In this document: positions 362 through 37,893 of the stretch, in pieces | Layout of the letters: each line of letters begins with the position of its first letter | Position numbering within the stretch: the first letter of the stretch is position 1 | Translations under genes and position numbers: made by a program | Notes under the pieces: generated by a model | What the model was told of the DNA's origin: nothing | The model's input: the letters and a program-made list of their open reading frames with translations, nothing else | Database searches by the model: none | Assembly (NCBI GenBank): GCA_015058275.1 | Contig: SVCQ01000013.1 | Location: forward strand, 1-51,187 | From: Clostridiales bacterium | GTDB taxonomy: Bacteria; Bacillota; Clostridia; Peptostreptococcales; Anaerovoracaceae | Direction: 5' to 3' | Length of the DNA: 51,187 nucleotides

Positions 362-1516
362 ATGAAAAGGATACTTATACTCGGGGCCGGCAACGCCCAG
401 ATCGACGCAATCGAATACTGCAAGAGTCATGGCTATGAGGTAGTCGGCTGCAGCTACACTACGGTGGACTGCGGCATCCCTCATCTGGACATCTTCGAAC
501 AGGTGGATATCAAGAACGTGGACGGGATAGTGGCTCTGGCTGAGAAGTACGGTGTCTCGGCTATCTACTCCGTCGGTTCGGACATAGCGATGCCGACTGT
601 CATGATGGCGAGCGAGAAGCTTGGCCTGCCGCATTTCATCACGGCTGAGGCCGCAGAGATATGCCACTCCAAGGGCCGCATGAGAGAGACTCTCGGAGAG
701 GGCTTTGAGGGCAACGCTTCCTTTATGGTCTGCTCCACGCTTGAGGAGGCTCTCGGCTACACGGATTTCCCGGCCATGATGAAGCCTGTGGACTCGCAGG
801 GCCAGAGGGGCTGCTACAGGGTCGAGTCGGCAGACGACATCCGCGAGCACTTCGCCGCCTCGATCGATTACTCATTCGAGGGCAGGGTCATAATAGAAGA
901 ATTCATCGACGGACCTGAAGTCTCGGTCAACGCATACATGCAGGACGGCAGGATGAAGTTTGCGATCGTATCCGACAGATACGCATTCGACGAGTACCCG
1001 GGAGGCATCATCAAGGAGCATAGAGTGCCTTCGTCCTTTGCGGACAAAGAGGCTCAGGCTAAGACAGTGGATCTCGCAGAGAGGATAGCTAAGAGGATCG
1101 GCATAGACAACGGCCCGTGCTACTTCCAGATCAAGCTCAGAGGAGGCAATGAGCCTGTCATCCTCGAGGTGACTCCGAGGCTCGACGGCTGCCATATGTG
1201 GAACCTCATCAAACATTACTGCGGGGCGGACCTGCTCGATGCATGCTTCAGACATCTTCTCGAGGGAGAGTCGGTGCTCGACGGCGACTACGTGATGCCG
1301 GATGAGGAGTGGGCGCTGCAGTTCATGAGCAAGGAGCCTAATACCAAATTCAGCAGGGCGGACTTCGACACAAGCGACTCGGACTATGCCTGCTACTACT
1401 ACGACGACGGGGACAGAGTCCTTAAGATAAACGGCTACATCGAAAAGTGCGGGTATATGATCCGTAGAATCGGATCCTGTCATTCTGACGAGCGAAGCGA
1501 GGAAGAATCCCGCTGA
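362..1516 (+). CDS. ATP-grasp enzyme
   Basis: A 384-residue protein of the ATP-grasp superfamily, which couples ATP hydrolysis to carboxylate-amine or carboxylate-thiol ligation. The N-terminus 'MKRILILGAGNAQ' forms the pre-ATP-grasp Rossmann-like domain. 'FPAMMKPVDSQGQRG' (about residues 138-152) is the ATP-binding loop, and 'PVILEVTPRLDGCH' is the metal-binding strand and loop. ATG at 362 is chosen because it starts the conserved N-terminus; no Shine-Dalgarno is visible because the IS-like remnant ends right in front of it. The last residues (CHSDERSEE and onward) are read from a dispersed repeat, so the native C-terminus has been replaced or extended. The CapK-like gene follows after 24 bp. 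The substrate is unknown; a sugar or peptide modification of a surface polymer is inferred from context. Confidence 0.85.
   Translation: MKRILILGAGNAQIDAIEYCKSHGYEVVGCSYTTVDCGIPHLDIFEQVDIKNVDGIVALAEKYGVSAIYSVGSDIAMPTVMMASEKLGLPHFITAEAAEICHSKGRMRETLGEGFEGNASFMVCSTLEEALGYTDFPAMMKPVDSQGQRGCYRVESADDIREHFAASIDYSFEGRVIIEEFIDGPEVSVNAYMQDGRMKFAIVSDRYAFDEYPGGIIKEHRVPSSFADKEAQAKTVDLAERIAKRIGIDNGPCYFQIKLRGGNEPVILEVTPRLDGCHMWNLIKHYCGADLLDACFRHLLEGESVLDGDYVMPDEEWALQFMSKEPNTKFSRADFDTSDSDYACYYYDDGDRVLKINGYIEKCGYMIRRIGSCHSDERSEEESR
1479..1510 (+). repeat. REP-like dispersed repeat, inside the 3' end of a gene
   Basis: The sequence starts GTCATTCTGA and ends GAAGAATCC, with a CGAGCGAAGCGAGG core. It is a diverged copy of the family at 14170-14204, 14570-14604 and 27140-27178. 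This copy supplies the last codons of the ATP-grasp gene. Confidence 0.75.
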
Positions 1517-14157: not shown

Positions 14158-14169
14158 TCACCCGTCCAT

Positions 14170-14204
14170 GTCATTCTGAGGGAGCAAAGCGACCGAAGAA
14201 TCTC
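14170..14204 (+). repeat. REP-like repeat, left copy flanking the GIY-YIG gene
   Basis: This 35-bp unit starts GTCATTCTGAGGGAGC and ends ACCGAAGAATCTC. It is identical to 14570-14604, exactly 400 bp away and in the same orientation. ATTCT and AGAAT near the ends are the arms of an imperfect palindrome. Confidence 0.9.
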
Positions 14205-14224
14205 ACCGAAATAAAACAAGAATC

Positions 14225-14509
14225 ATGAAAGAGTATTACGTATACATTCTGACAAATAAATTTAATAACGTGATGTATATCGGAGTGACTAATGATCTTG
14301 TGAGACGGGTGTATGAACATAAAAATAAACTGGTCGAAGGATTCACAAGCAAATACAACGTGGATAAGCTCGTATATTACGAACAGACATCGAGTGTCGA
14401 AGCTGCGATAGAAAGAGAAAAGCAACTTAAAGGCTGGAAGCGTGATAAAAAGAACGCTTTGGTTGAATCATTCAATCCGGAATGGAAGGATTTGAGTGCT
14501 GATCTGTGA
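14225..14509 (+). CDS. Small GIY-YIG domain nuclease, repeat-flanked
   Basis: A 94-residue single-domain GIY-YIG protein. 'YYVYILTNK' and 'NVMYIGVTND' give the paired GIY-YIG strands, Arg28 or Arg29 ('LVRRVYEHK') is the expected catalytic arginine, and Glu63 or Glu65 ('AIEREKQLKGW') is the metal-binding glutamate. The family (UPF0213/YhbQ-like) cuts DNA or is proposed to act in repair. AT content is higher than in its neighbours and no good ribosome binding site is seen. The gene sits between rfbB and wecE, which otherwise belong together, and is enclosed by REP-like repeats. It is therefore best read as an insertion carried with those repeats. Confidence 0.88.
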   Translation: MKEYYVYILTNKFNNVMYIGVTNDLVRRVYEHKNKLVEGFTSKYNVDKLVYYEQTSSVEAAIEREKQLKGWKRDKKNALVESFNPEWKDLSADL

Positions 14510-14640
14510 GATCCTTCGCCGCTACGCGGCTCAGGATGACAGTTACGGTTCAGGATGACAGTACTGTATGTCATTCTGAGGGAGCAAAGCGACCGAAGAA
14601 TCTCGATGAGATCCTTCGCTACGCTCAGGATGACAGTTAC
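14508..14640. repeat. Cluster of REP-like repeats right of the GIY-YIG gene
   Basis: The cluster has an inverted unit at 14508-14541, a half unit (TTCAGGATGACAGT) at 14549-14562, a direct unit at 14570-14604 identical to 14170-14204, and an inverted unit at 14608-14638. In the first, ATCCT and AGGAT enclose GCCGC-TAC-GCGGC, a compact hairpin. The inverted unit overlaps the stop codon of the GIY-YIG gene. Confidence 0.9.
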
Positions 14641-23253: not shown

Positions 23254-23261
23254 CTCGGGAT

Positions 23262-23492
23262 GTATTGCCTTTTCGTAGTGATTGTGGAATTTAGCAATAC
23301 AAATTGACTTTTCGACAATGAAAATGTATTGCCAAATACATGTGGAAGTGGCTTTTGGCAATACAAATTGACCTTTCGACAATGAAAATGTATTGCCAAA
23401 TACATGTAGAAGTGGCTTTTGGCAATACACAATATCCATTCAGCAATGAGAATGTATTGCCAAATCTATAGACAAACATGTAAAAGCAATAC
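23262..23492. repeat. Array of 64-bp tandem units with hairpins
   Basis: GTATTGCC begins at 23262, 23326, 23390 and 23454, an exact 64-bp period, giving three full units and a partial fourth. In each unit an inverted copy, GCAATAC, starts 32 bp after the start of GTATTGCC. Units 2 and 3 carry 11-bp arms, GTATTGCCAAA and TTTGGCAATAC, with a 17-nt loop. Unit 1 differs in the first half and unit 3 in the second half, while the rest is nearly identical. The array lies between the LCP gene and an unknown membrane protein gene. No gene was found in 23223-23630. Confidence 0.85.
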
Positions 23493-27008: not shown

Positions 27009-27178
27009 CTGTCATCCTGAGCCGTACTGTCATCCTGAGCCGTACTGTCATCCTGAGCCGTACTGTCATCCTGAGCTGTACTGTCATCCTGAGCCGCAAA
27101 GCGGCGAAGGATCTCATAGAATCGTATCGAAGGATCTCTACGAGATTCTTCGGTCGCTACGCTCCCTCAGAATGACAG
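27009..27178. repeat. REP-like repeat cluster with 18-bp tandem array
   Basis: Units at 27009-27026, 27027-27044 and 27045-27062 are identical (CTGTCATCCTGAGCCGTA). The fourth at 27063-27080 differs by one base, and the fifth (27081-27115) is a full-length repeat ending GGCGAAGGATCTC. A further fragment is at 27128-27139 and an inverted unit at 27140-27178, like that at 14170-14204. This is the same family as 1479, 14170-14640 and 28412-28461. Short open frames through it are repeat artefacts. Confidence 0.9.
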
Positions 27179-28411: not shown

Positions 28412-28461
28412 CTGTCATCCTGAGCTGTTATGTCATCCTGAGCGCAGCGAAGGATCTCAGA
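28412..28461 (+). repeat. REP-like repeats between ATP-grasp and SMR genes
   Basis: A half unit (TGTCATCCTGAGCTGT) starts at 28412, followed by a full unit from 28430 that reads GTCATCCTGAGCGCAG and GCGAAGGATCTC. ATCCT and AGGAT are the outer palindrome arms. Confidence 0.85.
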
Positions 28462-33636: not shown

Positions 33637-36600
33637 ATGAAGAGAATAAGTAAAATGTTGTCCCTCCTGCTGGCGCTGACAATGATACTGACGTTCATGC
33701 CTGCGCTTGCTTTTGCTGAGGATGAGACAACGAGCACAAACACTATGACTGAGACAGAGGTCAGCCAGAATGAAGACACCGAATCTCAGGATTCTTTAGT
33801 TGGAGAGAAAAGCACTGTTAAAACCCTCGACATAGAGAATGGTGGTGAGGAATCCGGAGGTGAATCAACCGCAACATACACGGTTACATGGAAGAACGGA
33901 TCTACCACCCTGGAGACAGATACAGACGTAGCTTCGGGTGCAAAGCCGTCATACGATGGAGCGGAGCCAACAAAAGAAGCGACAGAGCAGTACACATATA
34001 CATTTGCTGGCTGGGCAACTGAGGATAATCAGGAGAGCGGAACAGCAGCATCAGATCTGCCGGAAGTTACCGATAACAAGATTTATTACGCAGCCTTTAA
34101 AGCAACGCAGAATGTTGCGAGTATTACAAATGACTCAGGAACACAGTATTATATTTCAATTCTAGACGCATGGTACGCTTTAAAAAATGGTGAAACTATT
34201 AAGATAGAAAAGGACACTTCATTTCCGGATAAAAATTGGCCTATTACAGATAATATGACATTAGATCTGAATGGCCATAACGTTCTTAGCGATAAAGTAA
34301 CTACTATTTCTGGGGATTTTACTATCGAAGATAGTAGCGATGAGAAAAAAGGGATACTTAACATATCTCAAGATTATGGTTTGCGTATTGGCGGAACCGG
34401 AAAGCTGACTGTAAAGAGCGGTACAATATCAATGAATGGCTCAAATTTTGGTTTAGCGTTGTTTGCCAATACTAGGCTATTAGTTAACGGGGGGACAATA
34501 AAAGGAAAAAATGTAGCTGTTTGGGCATATGAAGATAATGTCTCTATTGAATTAAAGAATGGTTCTATTATTTCAGATGGCGATGCTGCAATTTTCACAC
34601 AAAAAAACAAATCGGGAATAAGTATTATTGTTAATGGCGGACGGGTTGAAGCAAACACAAACACAATTGAGGTTGGTTCAGGCAATAAGAATTGCTCAGT
34701 TAATATTGCAGGTGGATCTCTAATAGCAAATAGTGGTGGGACAATAGCCAATAATGCCGCAGGCACTGAAATTAATATAAAGGGCGGATCCCTCTATGCT
34801 AACGGAAATGTGATAGCGGATATCGCAGGAGCGAATATCACTATTGATGGGTCTAATACAGAACTTGCCAGAAAGGATAAACATCTTGAGATGCTCTATA
34901 GTTGCGGGAATTTGTCGATTTCCGGCGGTAGCTTTACTGGTAGATTTAATTATTCAGGAGCAAAAAAGGCTGAGATAAGTGGAGGCTACTTCATCTTTGA
35001 TGTACCTCCGGGGAATCCTGAAAACGAGAGTATAAACAATAATGGTGCAGGTAAGCTTGCTATCAGTGGCGGTTACTTTGCCATGGTAGATGAGGATGAT
35101 CTTGCCGATCAAAATCATATTGCAATAAAGAGTGACATTGAAGGCTATAAGTATAAGGTTGTAGGCCAGTATGATATTGCCTTCAAAATTGGCAGCACAG
35201 ATCTTCAAAGCGGAAAAGTAATTGAAGGTGAAAAGCCTTCATATACAGGTGAGACCCCAACTAAGGATGCGGATGCTCAGTATACATATACATTTGCCGG
35301 ATGGGCAACAGAGGACGGGCAGGAGTCTGGTAAGAGCATTGAGGAGCTTCCTGAAGTTACAGGTGATGCAACTTACTATGCCGCATTCAGTAAAACAGTT
35401 AACAAATACAAGGTAACTTGGAAAAACGATGATGGAACTGTTCTTAAAACAGAGGATCTGGATTATGGTAGTGTCCCGTCTTATAGCGAAGATACACCGA
35501 CTAAGGCCTCTGATGGGGAGAATGACTACACGTTTAAAGGATGGAAATCCGGTAATACTGAGTATGCTATAGGCGTTGCGCTGCCGTCTGTTACAGAGGC
35601 TGTCACATACACAGCCGCTTACACAAGCACTCCGGCAACACACACCATAACCTTTGATACCGACGGGGGAAGCACAGTAGAAGCTATAACCCAAAGTTTT
35701 GGTTCACAGATTACAGCACCGGCTGATCCTACAAAAAAAGGTCACACGTTTAAGGGCTGGGATAAACAGATCCCTCAGACTATGCCGGCTGAGGATATGA
35801 CTATTAAGGCGCAGTGGTCGGTCAATAGCTATGATGTCAGCTATAGCTACAGCGGAAATGTTCCGGACGGCGCATCTACAGCACCTGCAACAATCCAGAA
35901 GGCCTATGGGTCGGAAGTAATAGTTGAGAAAGCCCCAACACTTGAAGGCTACACCTTCAGTGGCTGGAGTACCTCTGATGCAAGCGTATCAAGCGGCAAA
36001 TTCAATATGCCTGACAAAAATGTTGGTTTTACGGGCACTTGGACTGCAAATGGAGACACACCATATACTGTTAAACACTATCTGGAACAACTCGATGGGT
36101 CATACAGTTTAAAAAAGACGGACAGCCTCTCAGGCGAAACAGGTAAAGAAGCAACAGCCAATCAGGGTTCGTTTGATCATTACAAATTTGACAGTGACAA
36201 TACTGATAATGTCATAAGCGGCACGATAGCCGGTAATGGAAGTCTTGAGCTCAAGCTTTACTACAAGCTCGACAGACACAGCGTTAAATTTGAAAATTCA
36301 GATGGATCAACATTAAAGGAGGCTGTTGATTACCCGTATGGTACATCCGGTAGTTCCATAACAAAGCCGTCAAATGATCCGACAAAAGACGCTGATACTC
36401 AGTATACGTATACCTTTATCGGATGGAATGACGGACAGAAAGACTATGATAAGGACGCAACCCTTCCTTCGGTAACTGCGGATACAGTCTACAGGGCGAA
36501 ATACTCCTCTACACTAAACAAATATACGGTAGCATGGAAAAACGAGGATGGAAAACTCCTTGCAGAAGAGACTTCGGAATACGGCAAGATGCCATCGTAT

Positions 36601-37893
36601 AAGGGAGAAACACCGACAAAACAGGCAAATGCTCAGTATACATATTCCTTTGCCGGTTGGGATAAGGAAGTTACCTCTGTAACAGGCGATGCAGAATATG
36701 TCGCGACATACTCTGCAACTGTCAATAAGTACACTGTTATCTGGAAGGATGAGAACGGCAATGTGCTCGAAACAGATAACAACGTCGAATACGGAACTGT
36801 TCCTGAATATAACGGGCAAAACCCTGAGAAGGAAGCTGATGCTCAGTATTCATACAGCTTCGACGGGTGGGATAACGACATTGTAGCCGTGACAGGTGAT
36901 GCAACGTACACAGCTAAGTATACTGCAACAACCAACAAATACACCGTGACATGGAGAAACATGAATAATGCCATACTCGAGACAGATGAGGTGGAATACG
37001 GTGTTATTCCTGAGTATAAGGGGCAAACTCCGACGAACGCCCCTGATGCACAGTACTCATATGTGTTCGATAAGTGGGATAAGAGCATCACGGCAGTAAA
37101 TGGCGACGTAACATATACCGCAACTTACTCACTGGTGCCGGTTATGTATTCCCTCTCGTTCAAACCTAACGGAGGGACCGGAGAGATGGCGGATCAAACT
37201 TCTCCTTATGGAAGATATACACTGCCGGAATGCGCCTTTAGCGCACCTGGAGATAGAGTGTTCGCCGGATGGAAACTCGGTAATACCGTCTACGCAGCCG
37301 GTGAGCGCGTGACTGTACACTCTGATTTGATATTGACTGCGCAATGGACCGATAGTGATGAACTGGTTGCAGCGAAGAAGAAGGCTATTGCTGAACTTGA
37401 CAAGACTGATTTGAGTAAATACAGCGAGCCGGAAAGGACCGCAGTAAAGAAAGCTGTAGATAATGCCAGAGCAGAAATCAGCAAGGCCAATAAGATAACG
37501 GAAGTCTCGTCGATCTTCAGCAATTCAAGAGCTTTTATAGGAAATCAAAAGACTGATGCCGCAAAGATGAGCGGCGAGGTCCTTGATACCGGCCTCCCGA
37601 GACCATCCATAAAGAAGGCTAAGAGCAGCAAAAAAGCTCTTACAGCAAGATGGAAAAAGCTCAGCAAGAAAAAACAGAAGAAGATCACAGGCGTTGAGAT
37701 AAGGATCTCAAGCGACAGACAATTCCTGAGTGATGTCAAGGTAGTTTATGCGAAGAAAAGTGCGGCATCCAAGAAGATCAAAAAGCTTGCACGGAAGCAG
37801 ACATACTATGTACAAATCAGGACTTATAAGAATGAAAATGGGGTCAGGAAAGTCAGCCAGTGGTCGAAAATTAAAAAGGTGAAGACTCGCTGA
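33637..37893 (+). CDS. Large secreted protein with about ten Listeria-Bacteroides repeats
   Basis: A 1418-residue exported protein. The signal peptide ends near 'MPALAFAED' (about 28). A first repeat of the InlB B-repeat/Listeria-Bacteroides type lies at about 80-160, a right-handed beta-helix-like domain at 160-505, then about nine further repeats to 1238, most with 'YTYTFAGW' or 'YSYSFDGW' signatures. A MucBP-like segment starting 'TPYTVKHYLEQLDG' interrupts them. A helical bundle (about 1245-1310) and a basic C-terminal domain ('YYVQIRTYKNENGVRK') follow. No LPXTG motif is seen. ATG 33637 has AGGTGG upstream. Part of the coding region (34100-35200) is markedly AT-richer than its neighbours. 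It is probably an adhesin. Confidence 0.8.
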   Translation: MKRISKMLSLLLALTMILTFMPALAFAEDETTSTNTMTETEVSQNEDTESQDSLVGEKSTVKTLDIENGGEESGGESTATYTVTWKNGSTTLETDTDVASGAKPSYDGAEPTKEATEQYTYTFAGWATEDNQESGTAASDLPEVTDNKIYYAAFKATQNVASITNDSGTQYYISILDAWYALKNGETIKIEKDTSFPDKNWPITDNMTLDLNGHNVLSDKVTTISGDFTIEDSSDEKKGILNISQDYGLRIGGTGKLTVKSGTISMNGSNFGLALFANTRLLVNGGTIKGKNVAVWAYEDNVSIELKNGSIISDGDAAIFTQKNKSGISIIVNGGRVEANTNTIEVGSGNKNCSVNIAGGSLIANSGGTIANNAAGTEINIKGGSLYANGNVIADIAGANITIDGSNTELARKDKHLEMLYSCGNLSISGGSFTGRFNYSGAKKAEISGGYFIFDVPPGNPENESINNNGAGKLAISGGYFAMVDEDDLADQNHIAIKSDIEGYKYKVVGQYDIAFKIGSTDLQSGKVIEGEKPSYTGETPTKDADAQYTYTFAGWATEDGQESGKSIEELPEVTGDATYYAAFSKTVNKYKVTWKNDDGTVLKTEDLDYGSVPSYSEDTPTKASDGENDYTFKGWKSGNTEYAIGVALPSVTEAVTYTAAYTSTPATHTITFDTDGGSTVEAITQSFGSQITAPADPTKKGHTFKGWDKQIPQTMPAEDMTIKAQWSVNSYDVSYSYSGNVPDGASTAPATIQKAYGSEVIVEKAPTLEGYTFSGWSTSDASVSSGKFNMPDKNVGFTGTWTANGDTPYTVKHYLEQLDGSYSLKKTDSLSGETGKEATANQGSFDHYKFDSDNTDNVISGTIAGNGSLELKLYYKLDRHSVKFENSDGSTLKEAVDYPYGTSGSSITKPSNDPTKDADTQYTYTFIGWNDGQKDYDKDATLPSVTADTVYRAKYSSTLNKYTVAWKNEDGKLLAEETSEYGKMPSYKGETPTKQANAQYTYSFAGWDKEVTSVTGDAEYVATYSATVNKYTVIWKDENGNVLETDNNVEYGTVPEYNGQNPEKEADAQYSYSFDGWDNDIVAVTGDATYTAKYTATTNKYTVTWRNMNNAILETDEVEYGVIPEYKGQTPTNAPDAQYSYVFDKWDKSITAVNGDVTYTATYSLVPVMYSLSFKPNGGTGEMADQTSPYGRYTLPECAFSAPGDRVFAGWKLGNTVYAAGERVTVHSDLILTAQWTDSDELVAAKKKAIAELDKTDLSKYSEPERTAVKKAVDNARAEISKANKITEVSSIFSNSRAFIGNQKTDAAKMSGEVLDTGLPRPSIKKAKSSKKALTARWKKLSKKKQKKITGVEIRISSDRQFLSDVKVVYAKKSAASKKIKKLARKQTYYVQIRTYKNENGVRKVSQWSKIKKVKTR

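Follow-up and report, generated by a model that had tools for sequence, protein, structure and literature searches.

Known repeat systems and the present locus

The REP/RAYT systems (REPtrons and REPINs) are constructed from short palindromes with a four-base tag, GTAG in the RAYT-linked repeats, which are dispersed and often arranged as inverted dimers, and from a single small nuclease gene that these repeats flank; its product, RAYT, is an HUH tyrosine transposase (Y1_Tnp), and the enzyme lineage tracks the repeat sequence. A further group of palindromes, the CGTC REPs, was surveyed by Di Nocera et al. in 2013 (PMC3733652). In the portions of this survey on which we draw, CGTC-type REPs are recorded from five phyla, including dRS3 of Neisseria and RPE-4 and RPE-6 of Rickettsia, with Azospirillum lipoferum, Sinorhizobium meliloti, Novosphingobium aromaticivorans and Neisseria among the hosts; they "apparently lack a dedicated transposase", and CGTC REPs do not flank any RAYT or IS200 transposase gene of the bacteria that harbour them. 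Among the matches listed in a search of open-licence articles in PubMed Central, with preprints outside its scope, none connected a GIY-YIG protein with REPs, and a table of clade-specific genes in the portion of PMC9465073 consulted includes a RayT entry and a GIY-YIG entry without any link between them.

The window analysed here is a stretch of 51,187 nucleotides, the whole of one contig of a 36-contig, 1.82-Mb assembly that is 82.8% complete, and it contains a small GIY-YIG nuclease gene bracketed by palindromic repeats. Free-standing GIY-YIG homing endonucleases exist, for instance Seg of phage T4, and the present element resembles them in that a small GIY-YIG nuclease gene appears to form the mobile unit; it differs from them in having no fixed allelic site, in carrying palindromic repeats at both ends, and in that the repeats appear to spread alone. 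With REP/RAYT it shares the short, dispersed palindromes with a four-base tag and frequent inverted dimers, the single small nuclease gene between copies of the repeat, the enzyme lineage that tracks the repeat sequence, and the want of a visible target-site duplication. Unlike REP/RAYT, it has the tag YGTC (TGTC in the window) instead of GTAG, it brackets a GIY-YIG gene instead of an HUH tyrosine transposase, and many genomes hold several diverged units, some copies of which are broken by stops. The system is not a REPtron, as its enzyme and its tag are both different, although it would work like one.

The repeats themselves agree with the CGTC REP superfamily, as far as it is described in the portions of PMC3733652 used here, in the TGTC/CGTC/CCTC tag, the AT at the first stem positions, which outside the window was required by our strict search and hence is not independent, and the tag-outward or inverted dimers. 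Whereas the usual CGTC REP has a stem of 8-9 bp, a loop of 4-5 and a CCA tail, the copies in the window have longer, imperfect stems and CTC as the tail; perfect-stem CCA copies exist in other units, for example in Azospirillum. Relatives of the window gene occur in A. lipoferum, S. meliloti, N. aromaticivorans and Neisseria, with CGTC-type palindromes beside each, strict in A. lipoferum and Neisseria and as tag variants in S. meliloti and N. aromaticivorans. The difference from the CGTC REPs as published is that a GIY-YIG clade stands inside the brackets here, while the portions of PMC3733652 on which we draw name no dedicated enzyme.

The nuclease gene and its repeats in the window

The gene at 14225..14509 on the plus strand encodes 94 amino acids and was characterized from its open reading frame, a Pfam match, an alignment and an AlphaFold model. 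It matches the Pfam GIY-YIG profile (PF01541) over positions 2-77 of 78 with an E value of 5.8e-18, which confirms the assignment made in the first-pass annotation, and it is the single PF01541 match in the 82.8% complete assembly. Thirteen columns are invariant in a 58-sequence alignment of members, among them Y7, G20, R28, H32, E65 and N84, which we take to be the catalytic residues of the GIY-YIG domain, and the window protein possesses this catalytic domain with its conserved residues. The AlphaFold model has a mean pLDDT of 96.4 and a pTM of 0.87. Only one solved structure was matched at E<=0.001, namely UPF0213 BH0048 (1zg2; E 2.7e-4, 30% identity), followed by Slx1 structures at E 0.011 and weaker, which are branched-DNA or structure-specific nucleases going by their entry titles. 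The protein is thus like the stand-alone UPF0213 and prokaryotic Slx1-like GIY-YIG proteins in fold and length. The flanking genes carry epimerase/dehydratase (PF16363, PF01370) and DegT aminotransferase (PF01041) domains, which are consistent with rfbB and wecE and with the earlier statement that the nuclease gene splits the two. For Y1_Tnp, the assembly gave a single match (C24:79911-80273), and both the strict REP and the repeat core were absent from its 3363-bp locus.

To the left of the gene lies a REP at 14169..14204 (plus strand, TGTCATTC...GAATCTC), which forms an inverted repeat with a REP to the right at 14508..14541 (minus strand, recognized by the core pattern); the TGTC tag of the left copy and the tag of the right copy both point outward from the gene, and the final 2 bases of the stop codon also belong to the right copy. 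Beyond it follow a head-only partial copy (14544..14564, minus strand, …TTCAGGATGACAGTAC) and a gene-less, tag-outward dimer at 14569-14635, of which the left half (14569..14604, plus strand) and the right half (14608..14635, minus strand) match the core pattern. The first-pass annotation had the gene enclosed by identical 35-bp direct repeats 400 bp apart. This direct repeat is real, 100% identical and spaced by 400 bp (14168-14204 and 14568-14604), but its length is 37 bp, and its two copies correspond to the left bracket REP and to the dimer's left half; repeats do enclose the gene, yet the informative pair is the inverted one, 14169-14204/14508-14541. The description of the family as REP-like likewise stands, with the amendment that it falls into the CGTC/TGTC superfamily rather than among the RAYT-linked GTAG repeats and that the bracket is inverted.

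The copies announced without a nuclease gene at 1479, 27009-27178 and 28412-28461 are all present. The first is a diverged single REP (1478..1509, plus strand). The second region begins with 4 tandem 18-bp head-only copies (TGTCATCCTGAG plus 6 nt; 27009..27081, plus strand) and continues with a gene-less dimer, whose halves lie at 27082..27115 (plus strand) and 27142..27177 (minus strand), and the third consists of a head-only partial copy (28413..28430, plus strand) and a single REP between two genes (28431..28458, plus strand). Head-only copies (TGTCATYCTGAG plus a few bases) adjoin full REPs at 27009-27081, 14544-14564 and 28413-28430, and they also occur at about 1862-1909 of a Planktothrix locus (L151), with a spacing of 18 bp in both the window and Planktothrix; such copies may record how the repeat is copied.

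The window copies read GTC-AT...AT-C, so that the stem starts with complementary AT positions behind the TGTC tag, with an outer stem of 5 bp, mismatches further inside and CTC as the tail. Folded as single-stranded DNA and compared with shuffles, the right REP at 14508-14541 (z -3.15), the dimer at 14569-14635 (z -3.23) and the segment 27082-27177 (z -3.98) stand out, while the left REP alone folds no better than shuffled DNA (z 0.11). Stem positions 6-7 of the window REPs show tandem G-A mismatches, GA facing GA, which are common in such REPs; tandem G-A mismatch pairs are stable.

Across the window's genome, the pattern GAGATYCTTCG-N0-30-YTCAGRATGACA has 47 matches on many contigs, 4 of them nested (43 not), and the reversed control pattern has 0 in the same genome, which places the repeat family far beyond chance. 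A manual count among the pattern matches gave 8 tag-outward dimers, and dispersed repeats with inverted dimers, a trait of REP/RAYT, are thus found in this genome. The window also contains other repeats, namely 3 tandem 64-bp units at 23260-23451, which are 64-78% identical to the first copy, and six 71-nt coding repeats at 33937-36871 with spacings of 210-1290 bp, which are probably surface protein repeats.

Bracketing of the nuclease clade

For the search beyond the window, a strict CGTC-type REP was defined as GTCAT, 3 bases, a gap, the complement of those 3 bases and ATC. Gene copies were pooled from all sources, with 192 of 199 kept and 7 duplicates taken out. A strict REP lies within 300 bp of 143/192 distinct copies, and 89/192 are enclosed by a tag-outward bracket. 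The corresponding numbers for REP and bracket are 67 and 45 of 78 in the one-genome-per-species scan, which covered the best 80 of at least 563 relatives; 22 and 12 of 29 in the Flavobacteriaceae-type family, 29 being those of the copies found whose flanks were examined; 7 and 6 of 12 for plasmids, from 12 of 32 plasmid records; 19 and 12 of 42 in the viral collection, the IMG/VR contigs having a strict REP at only 19/46 loci; 18 and 9 of 20 for paralogues; 5 and 3 of 5 in the window's own family; and 4 and 1 of 5 in its phylum, with the window itself counted as 1/1. Each of the 19 phyla named in the scan subset is represented by one or more members that have a strict REP, and T or C precedes GTC in 82/88 units. 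Several of the plasmid-filed records (NZ_CP119142, NZ_CP119140, CP090106, NZ_AP026896 and others) are 2-5 Mb long and resemble chromosomes, and the unit on the Planktothrix agardhii plasmid (L151) has an MmeI-type restriction gene on one side and the DISARM gene drmA on the other.

The association is confined to the immediate flanks of this clade. Among the first 86 loci, 76 have a strict REP within 300 bp and 52 a tag-outward bracket, and the density of strict REPs is 5.49/kb in the flanks versus 0.154/kb beyond 1 kb. In the 80 scan loci, the tag-outward bracket encloses 43/70 clade genes with full flanks versus 0/340 non-adjacent genes of the same loci, with 0/137 for the small ORFs among them; once adjacent genes, each having a flank in common with the nuclease gene, are included, the count is 4/508 genes. 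Some REP is found near 42/340 of the non-adjacent genes, and REPs occupy 93/119 intergenic gaps next to the nuclease gene versus 23/211 others. Distant GIY-YIG genes of the same family have a REP in 0/24 cases, by which these homologues of the UPF0213/Slx1-like kind differ from the present clade, as they do by forming a separate tree group.

A definition-free score of flanking inverted repeats led to the same picture, with values >=16 at 38/78 loci (2 of 80 had too little flank and were left out), compared with 13/2266 shifted controls and 113/2000 permuted pairs. Direct flank matches reach a score >=16 in 44 of the 78 loci versus 38 for inverted ones, because many flanks hold REP dimers; a reading of the flanks as a direct repeat only was dropped, since the inverted bracket fits far more loci. 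The 49 copies negative in the strict search, 46 of them evaluable and 3 with too little flank, yielded a flanking inverted repeat with a score >=16 in 30/46, versus 4.6% of permuted pairs, and many of these are tag variants such as GTCACCCC..GGGGTCC. No convincing flank was seen in the other 16/46, for instance in Rhizobium K1/93 (L154). In the window's family, an inverted palindrome pair surrounds the gene in all five close relatives, and the stem sequence is a different one in each. Stem pairing beyond the 3 required pairs was considered as additional support and set aside, as the results were mixed (56/182, 63/181, 140/180 and 62/164); we make no claim for pairs further in than the outer stem, because many stems have internal mismatches.

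These comparisons bear on what the first-pass annotation had proposed, namely that other GIY-YIG genes might carry the same flanks and that members without flanking repeats, or repeats just as frequent around unrelated genes, would speak against a link. The flanks do recur, at 143/192 copies in the strict search and, by the relaxed score, at a further 30/46 evaluable negatives; members without them exist in part (16/46 evaluable strict-negatives), most being flanked; and the repeats are not equally frequent around unrelated genes, where the bracket is found at 0/340 non-adjacent ones.

Distribution and empty sites

The gene has a scattered distribution. At E<=1e-15 it occurs in 6/398 genomes of the phylum and in 1/40 genomes of the genus, that of the window, and the repeat pattern, with its 47 matches, is likewise seen only there, in a genus survey that includes several incomplete assemblies and whose pattern search would overlook REPs of other types. 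The window's family, comprising 197 genomes, has 101 with some GIY-YIG match, and 5 of the matches besides the window's are close (54-61% identity). Phage records contained no relative at E<=1e-8.

Junctions lacking the insertion, a comparison suggested by the first-pass annotation, were found. In 26 congeners with rfbB upstream of wecE, the gap contains a REP in 0/26, and all 26 readable junctions are empty; the gap measures 6-122 bp in 22 of them and 1240 bp, with other sequence, in one, versus 507 bp with the unit in the window. Three congeners (L164, L166, L167) contain GC-rich, palindrome-like inserts of 201-257 bp between rfbB and wecE without a CGTC-type REP, which are a different repeat family of the genus. 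The nuclease-less REP sites at 27009-27178 and 28412-28461 are also empty in 7/7 congeners read, the equivalents of the former being gaps of 2-74 bp and those of the latter genes that abut or overlap. A similar situation was encountered in A. lipoferum 4B, where sufB and sufC lie 617 bp apart with the unit between them; the corresponding gaps are 87 bp in A. oryzae, 91 bp in A. ramasamyi and 129 bp in strain B510, and strict REPs, in the four-base stem setting, are absent from 40.75 kb in each of the three. For the unit of Rhizobium CIAT894, a near search for empty sites gave no usable site.

The insertion sites are unrelated, comprising rfbB-wecE, sufB-sufC and others among annotated plasmid loci, with no conserved allelic site or intron. 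Direct repeats of >=4 nt, as a sign of target-site duplication, occur at 4/88 units versus 3.2% in shuffled pairs, in which the element is unlike a classical DDE insertion sequence. Near-identical gene copies within one genome were not found, the best paralogous pair among those compared having 74% DNA identity, and hence the full unit was not seen in recently duplicated form. In the Flavobacteriaceae-type family, stop codons interrupt 15 of the listed gene copies, and a single genome, G698, carries 7 copies, a turnover like that of mobile genes.

Co-occurrence of gene and repeat was examined in the family of Arenibacter G645, where 71 of 149 genomes have the gene. The REP type GTCATTCCYGCNNNNGCRGGAATC is present in at least 2 copies in 24/71 carriers versus 4/78 others (Fisher 6.0e-6), and in at least 1 copy in 32/71 versus 14/78 (Fisher 3.9e-4). 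Two genomes without the nuclease gene, G750 and G785, hold 23 and 13 copies of the GTCATTCCYGCNNNNGCRGGAATC-type repeat, which implies that the repeat can persist after, or exist without, the gene.

Correspondence between nuclease lineage and REP sequence

Within the sequences compared, the REP sequence varies with the nuclease lineage. Between the left and right REPs of a single locus, the median number of differing arm positions is 2/18 (n=89), versus 8 between loci. Protein and REP divergence are correlated over 140 units (Mantel r 0.375, 0/2000 permutations), and the correlation persists among pairs below 65% identity (r 0.273) and below 60% (r 0.220; 0/2000 permutations). Two or more members were found in 11/26 genomes tested, and the REPs of paralogues within one genome often differ. 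By manual count of 24 paralogous copies, each compared with its sibling and with its best foreign match, the closer protein has the closer REP in 21, with the reverse in 2 and a tie in 1, and two Arenibacter species retain the same two nuclease-REP pairings. On a tree of 203 rows, which has few columns and many unresolved forks and from which copies with stops or fewer than 80 residues were left out, the REP label changes 23 times versus a shuffled mean of 55 (0/500 shuffles as low), and all 18/18 distant homologue rows used form one separate group with a support of 100.

In the window protein, residues 70-72 and 10-17 are those most strongly associated with the stem bases. At residue 71, W goes with C at the fourth stem base in 93 cases and with G in 13, while G goes with G in 17, with C in 1 and with A in 1 (Fisher 5.5e-12 on the C/G cells). 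As residue 71 changes only 4 times on the tree, and independent pairs on supported branches number only 1 for residue 71 and likewise 1 for residue 11, these residues were not adopted as evidence of recognition and serve as a lead only.

Proposed mechanism and alternatives

The bracketing, its specificity to the clade, the lineage-specific REP, the joint presence of gene and repeat in one genome of the genus and the empty sites can all be read directly from the sequences. The first-pass annotation had suggested that a GIY-YIG nuclease might play the part of RAYT in a non-classical mobile unit, and at this level the suggestion has gained support from the empty rfbB-wecE sites, the flanks of the clade and the near absence of the bracket from other genes, whereas we infer the cutting and moving step. 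We judge it probable that this small, stand-alone nuclease and the CGTC-type REP paired with it constitute a two-part mobile system, in which the nuclease mobilises the REPs.

The autonomous unit would be REP, gene and REP with the YGTC tags outward, about 370 bp in the window, and it would enter genomes horizontally. The nuclease may recognise the hairpin or cruciform formed by its own REP, an action suggested by the Slx1 structural matches together with the palindromes, and may nick it near the tag; by thus binding and cutting the REP it would mobilise the flanking REPs and the whole unit, and solo REPs and dimers elsewhere would be mobilised in trans and spread as non-autonomous copies. Repeated initiation at the tag may have left the tandem head-only copies seen at 27009-27081 and in Planktothrix L151. 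To our knowledge, a hydrolytic GIY-YIG nuclease has no strand-joining chemistry, so host repair must be invoked, and repair or replication would complete the move, presumably by a single-stranded or break-repair route rather than by classical cut-and-paste.

Three other explanations share part of this evidence. A homing-type element, which cuts REP-free or REP-bearing sites and is copied as a unit by break repair, leaving the REPs as repair footprints, would accord with the existence of free-standing GIY-YIG homing endonucleases, with the want of a target-site duplication in the 88 units, and with the tandem head-only copies of the window and Planktothrix, which resemble aborted or slipped copying. 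We hold it to be unlikely, as the insertions lie at unrelated genes (rfbB-wecE, sufB-sufC) and not at one conserved allele, and as gene-less REP copies at sites empty in relatives are unexplained by homing of the gene alone. The many copies in some genomes devoid of the gene, such as G750 and G785, would suit a passenger gene that lands in or near REPs as preferred targets while another enzyme moves them, and REPs are known targets of some insertion sequences according to the portion of PMC1525189 consulted; such a mobiliser could be missing from the 82.8% complete assembly. A passenger would not, however, match the REP type lineage by lineage, as the Mantel correlations and the 21 of 24 paralogous copies do, 39 congeners have no such REPs to land in, the bracket is found at no other gene of the same loci (0/340), and the one Y1 transposase of the genome has no REP nearby, which together make this explanation distinctly improbable.

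The standing of Slx1, whose structure-specific nucleases by entry title are the nearest solved relatives after UPF0213, could also indicate a hairpin processor on the host or element side, which trims or resolves REP cruciforms and keeps the repeats harmless without any movement. The distribution is that of an invader (6/398 genomes of the phylum and 1/40 of the genus at E<=1e-15), up to 7 copies, several with stops, occur in the Flavobacteriaceae-type family, and gene and repeat arrive together, and accordingly a mere processor seems very improbable indeed. Mobilisation of the REPs by the nuclease is the reading that we prefer. For its broadest form, a prokaryotic transposable element of a new class, found across 19 or more bacterial phyla without dependence on RAYT, in which a single-domain GIY-YIG nuclease alone moves the CGTC REPs including dRS3 and in which protein loops (residues 70-72 and 10-17) form a recognition code with the stem, we would put the chances at only slightly better than even.

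Significance

We rate the system as new in kind, because its enzyme comes from another superfamily and is without known strand-joining chemistry, and on a stricter view it could be regarded as a variant of REP systems. With this nuclease, a candidate enzyme is named for the CGTC-type REPs, whose mobiliser was an open question in the portions of the 2013 survey used here (PMC3733652). If the proposal is true, REP-type repeats would have arisen at least 2 times with unrelated enzymes, and a nuclease without known strand-joining chemistry would be able to support a mobile element. It would, moreover, provide a role for many of the small genes that are now annotated as 'GIY-YIG nuclease family protein' without one.
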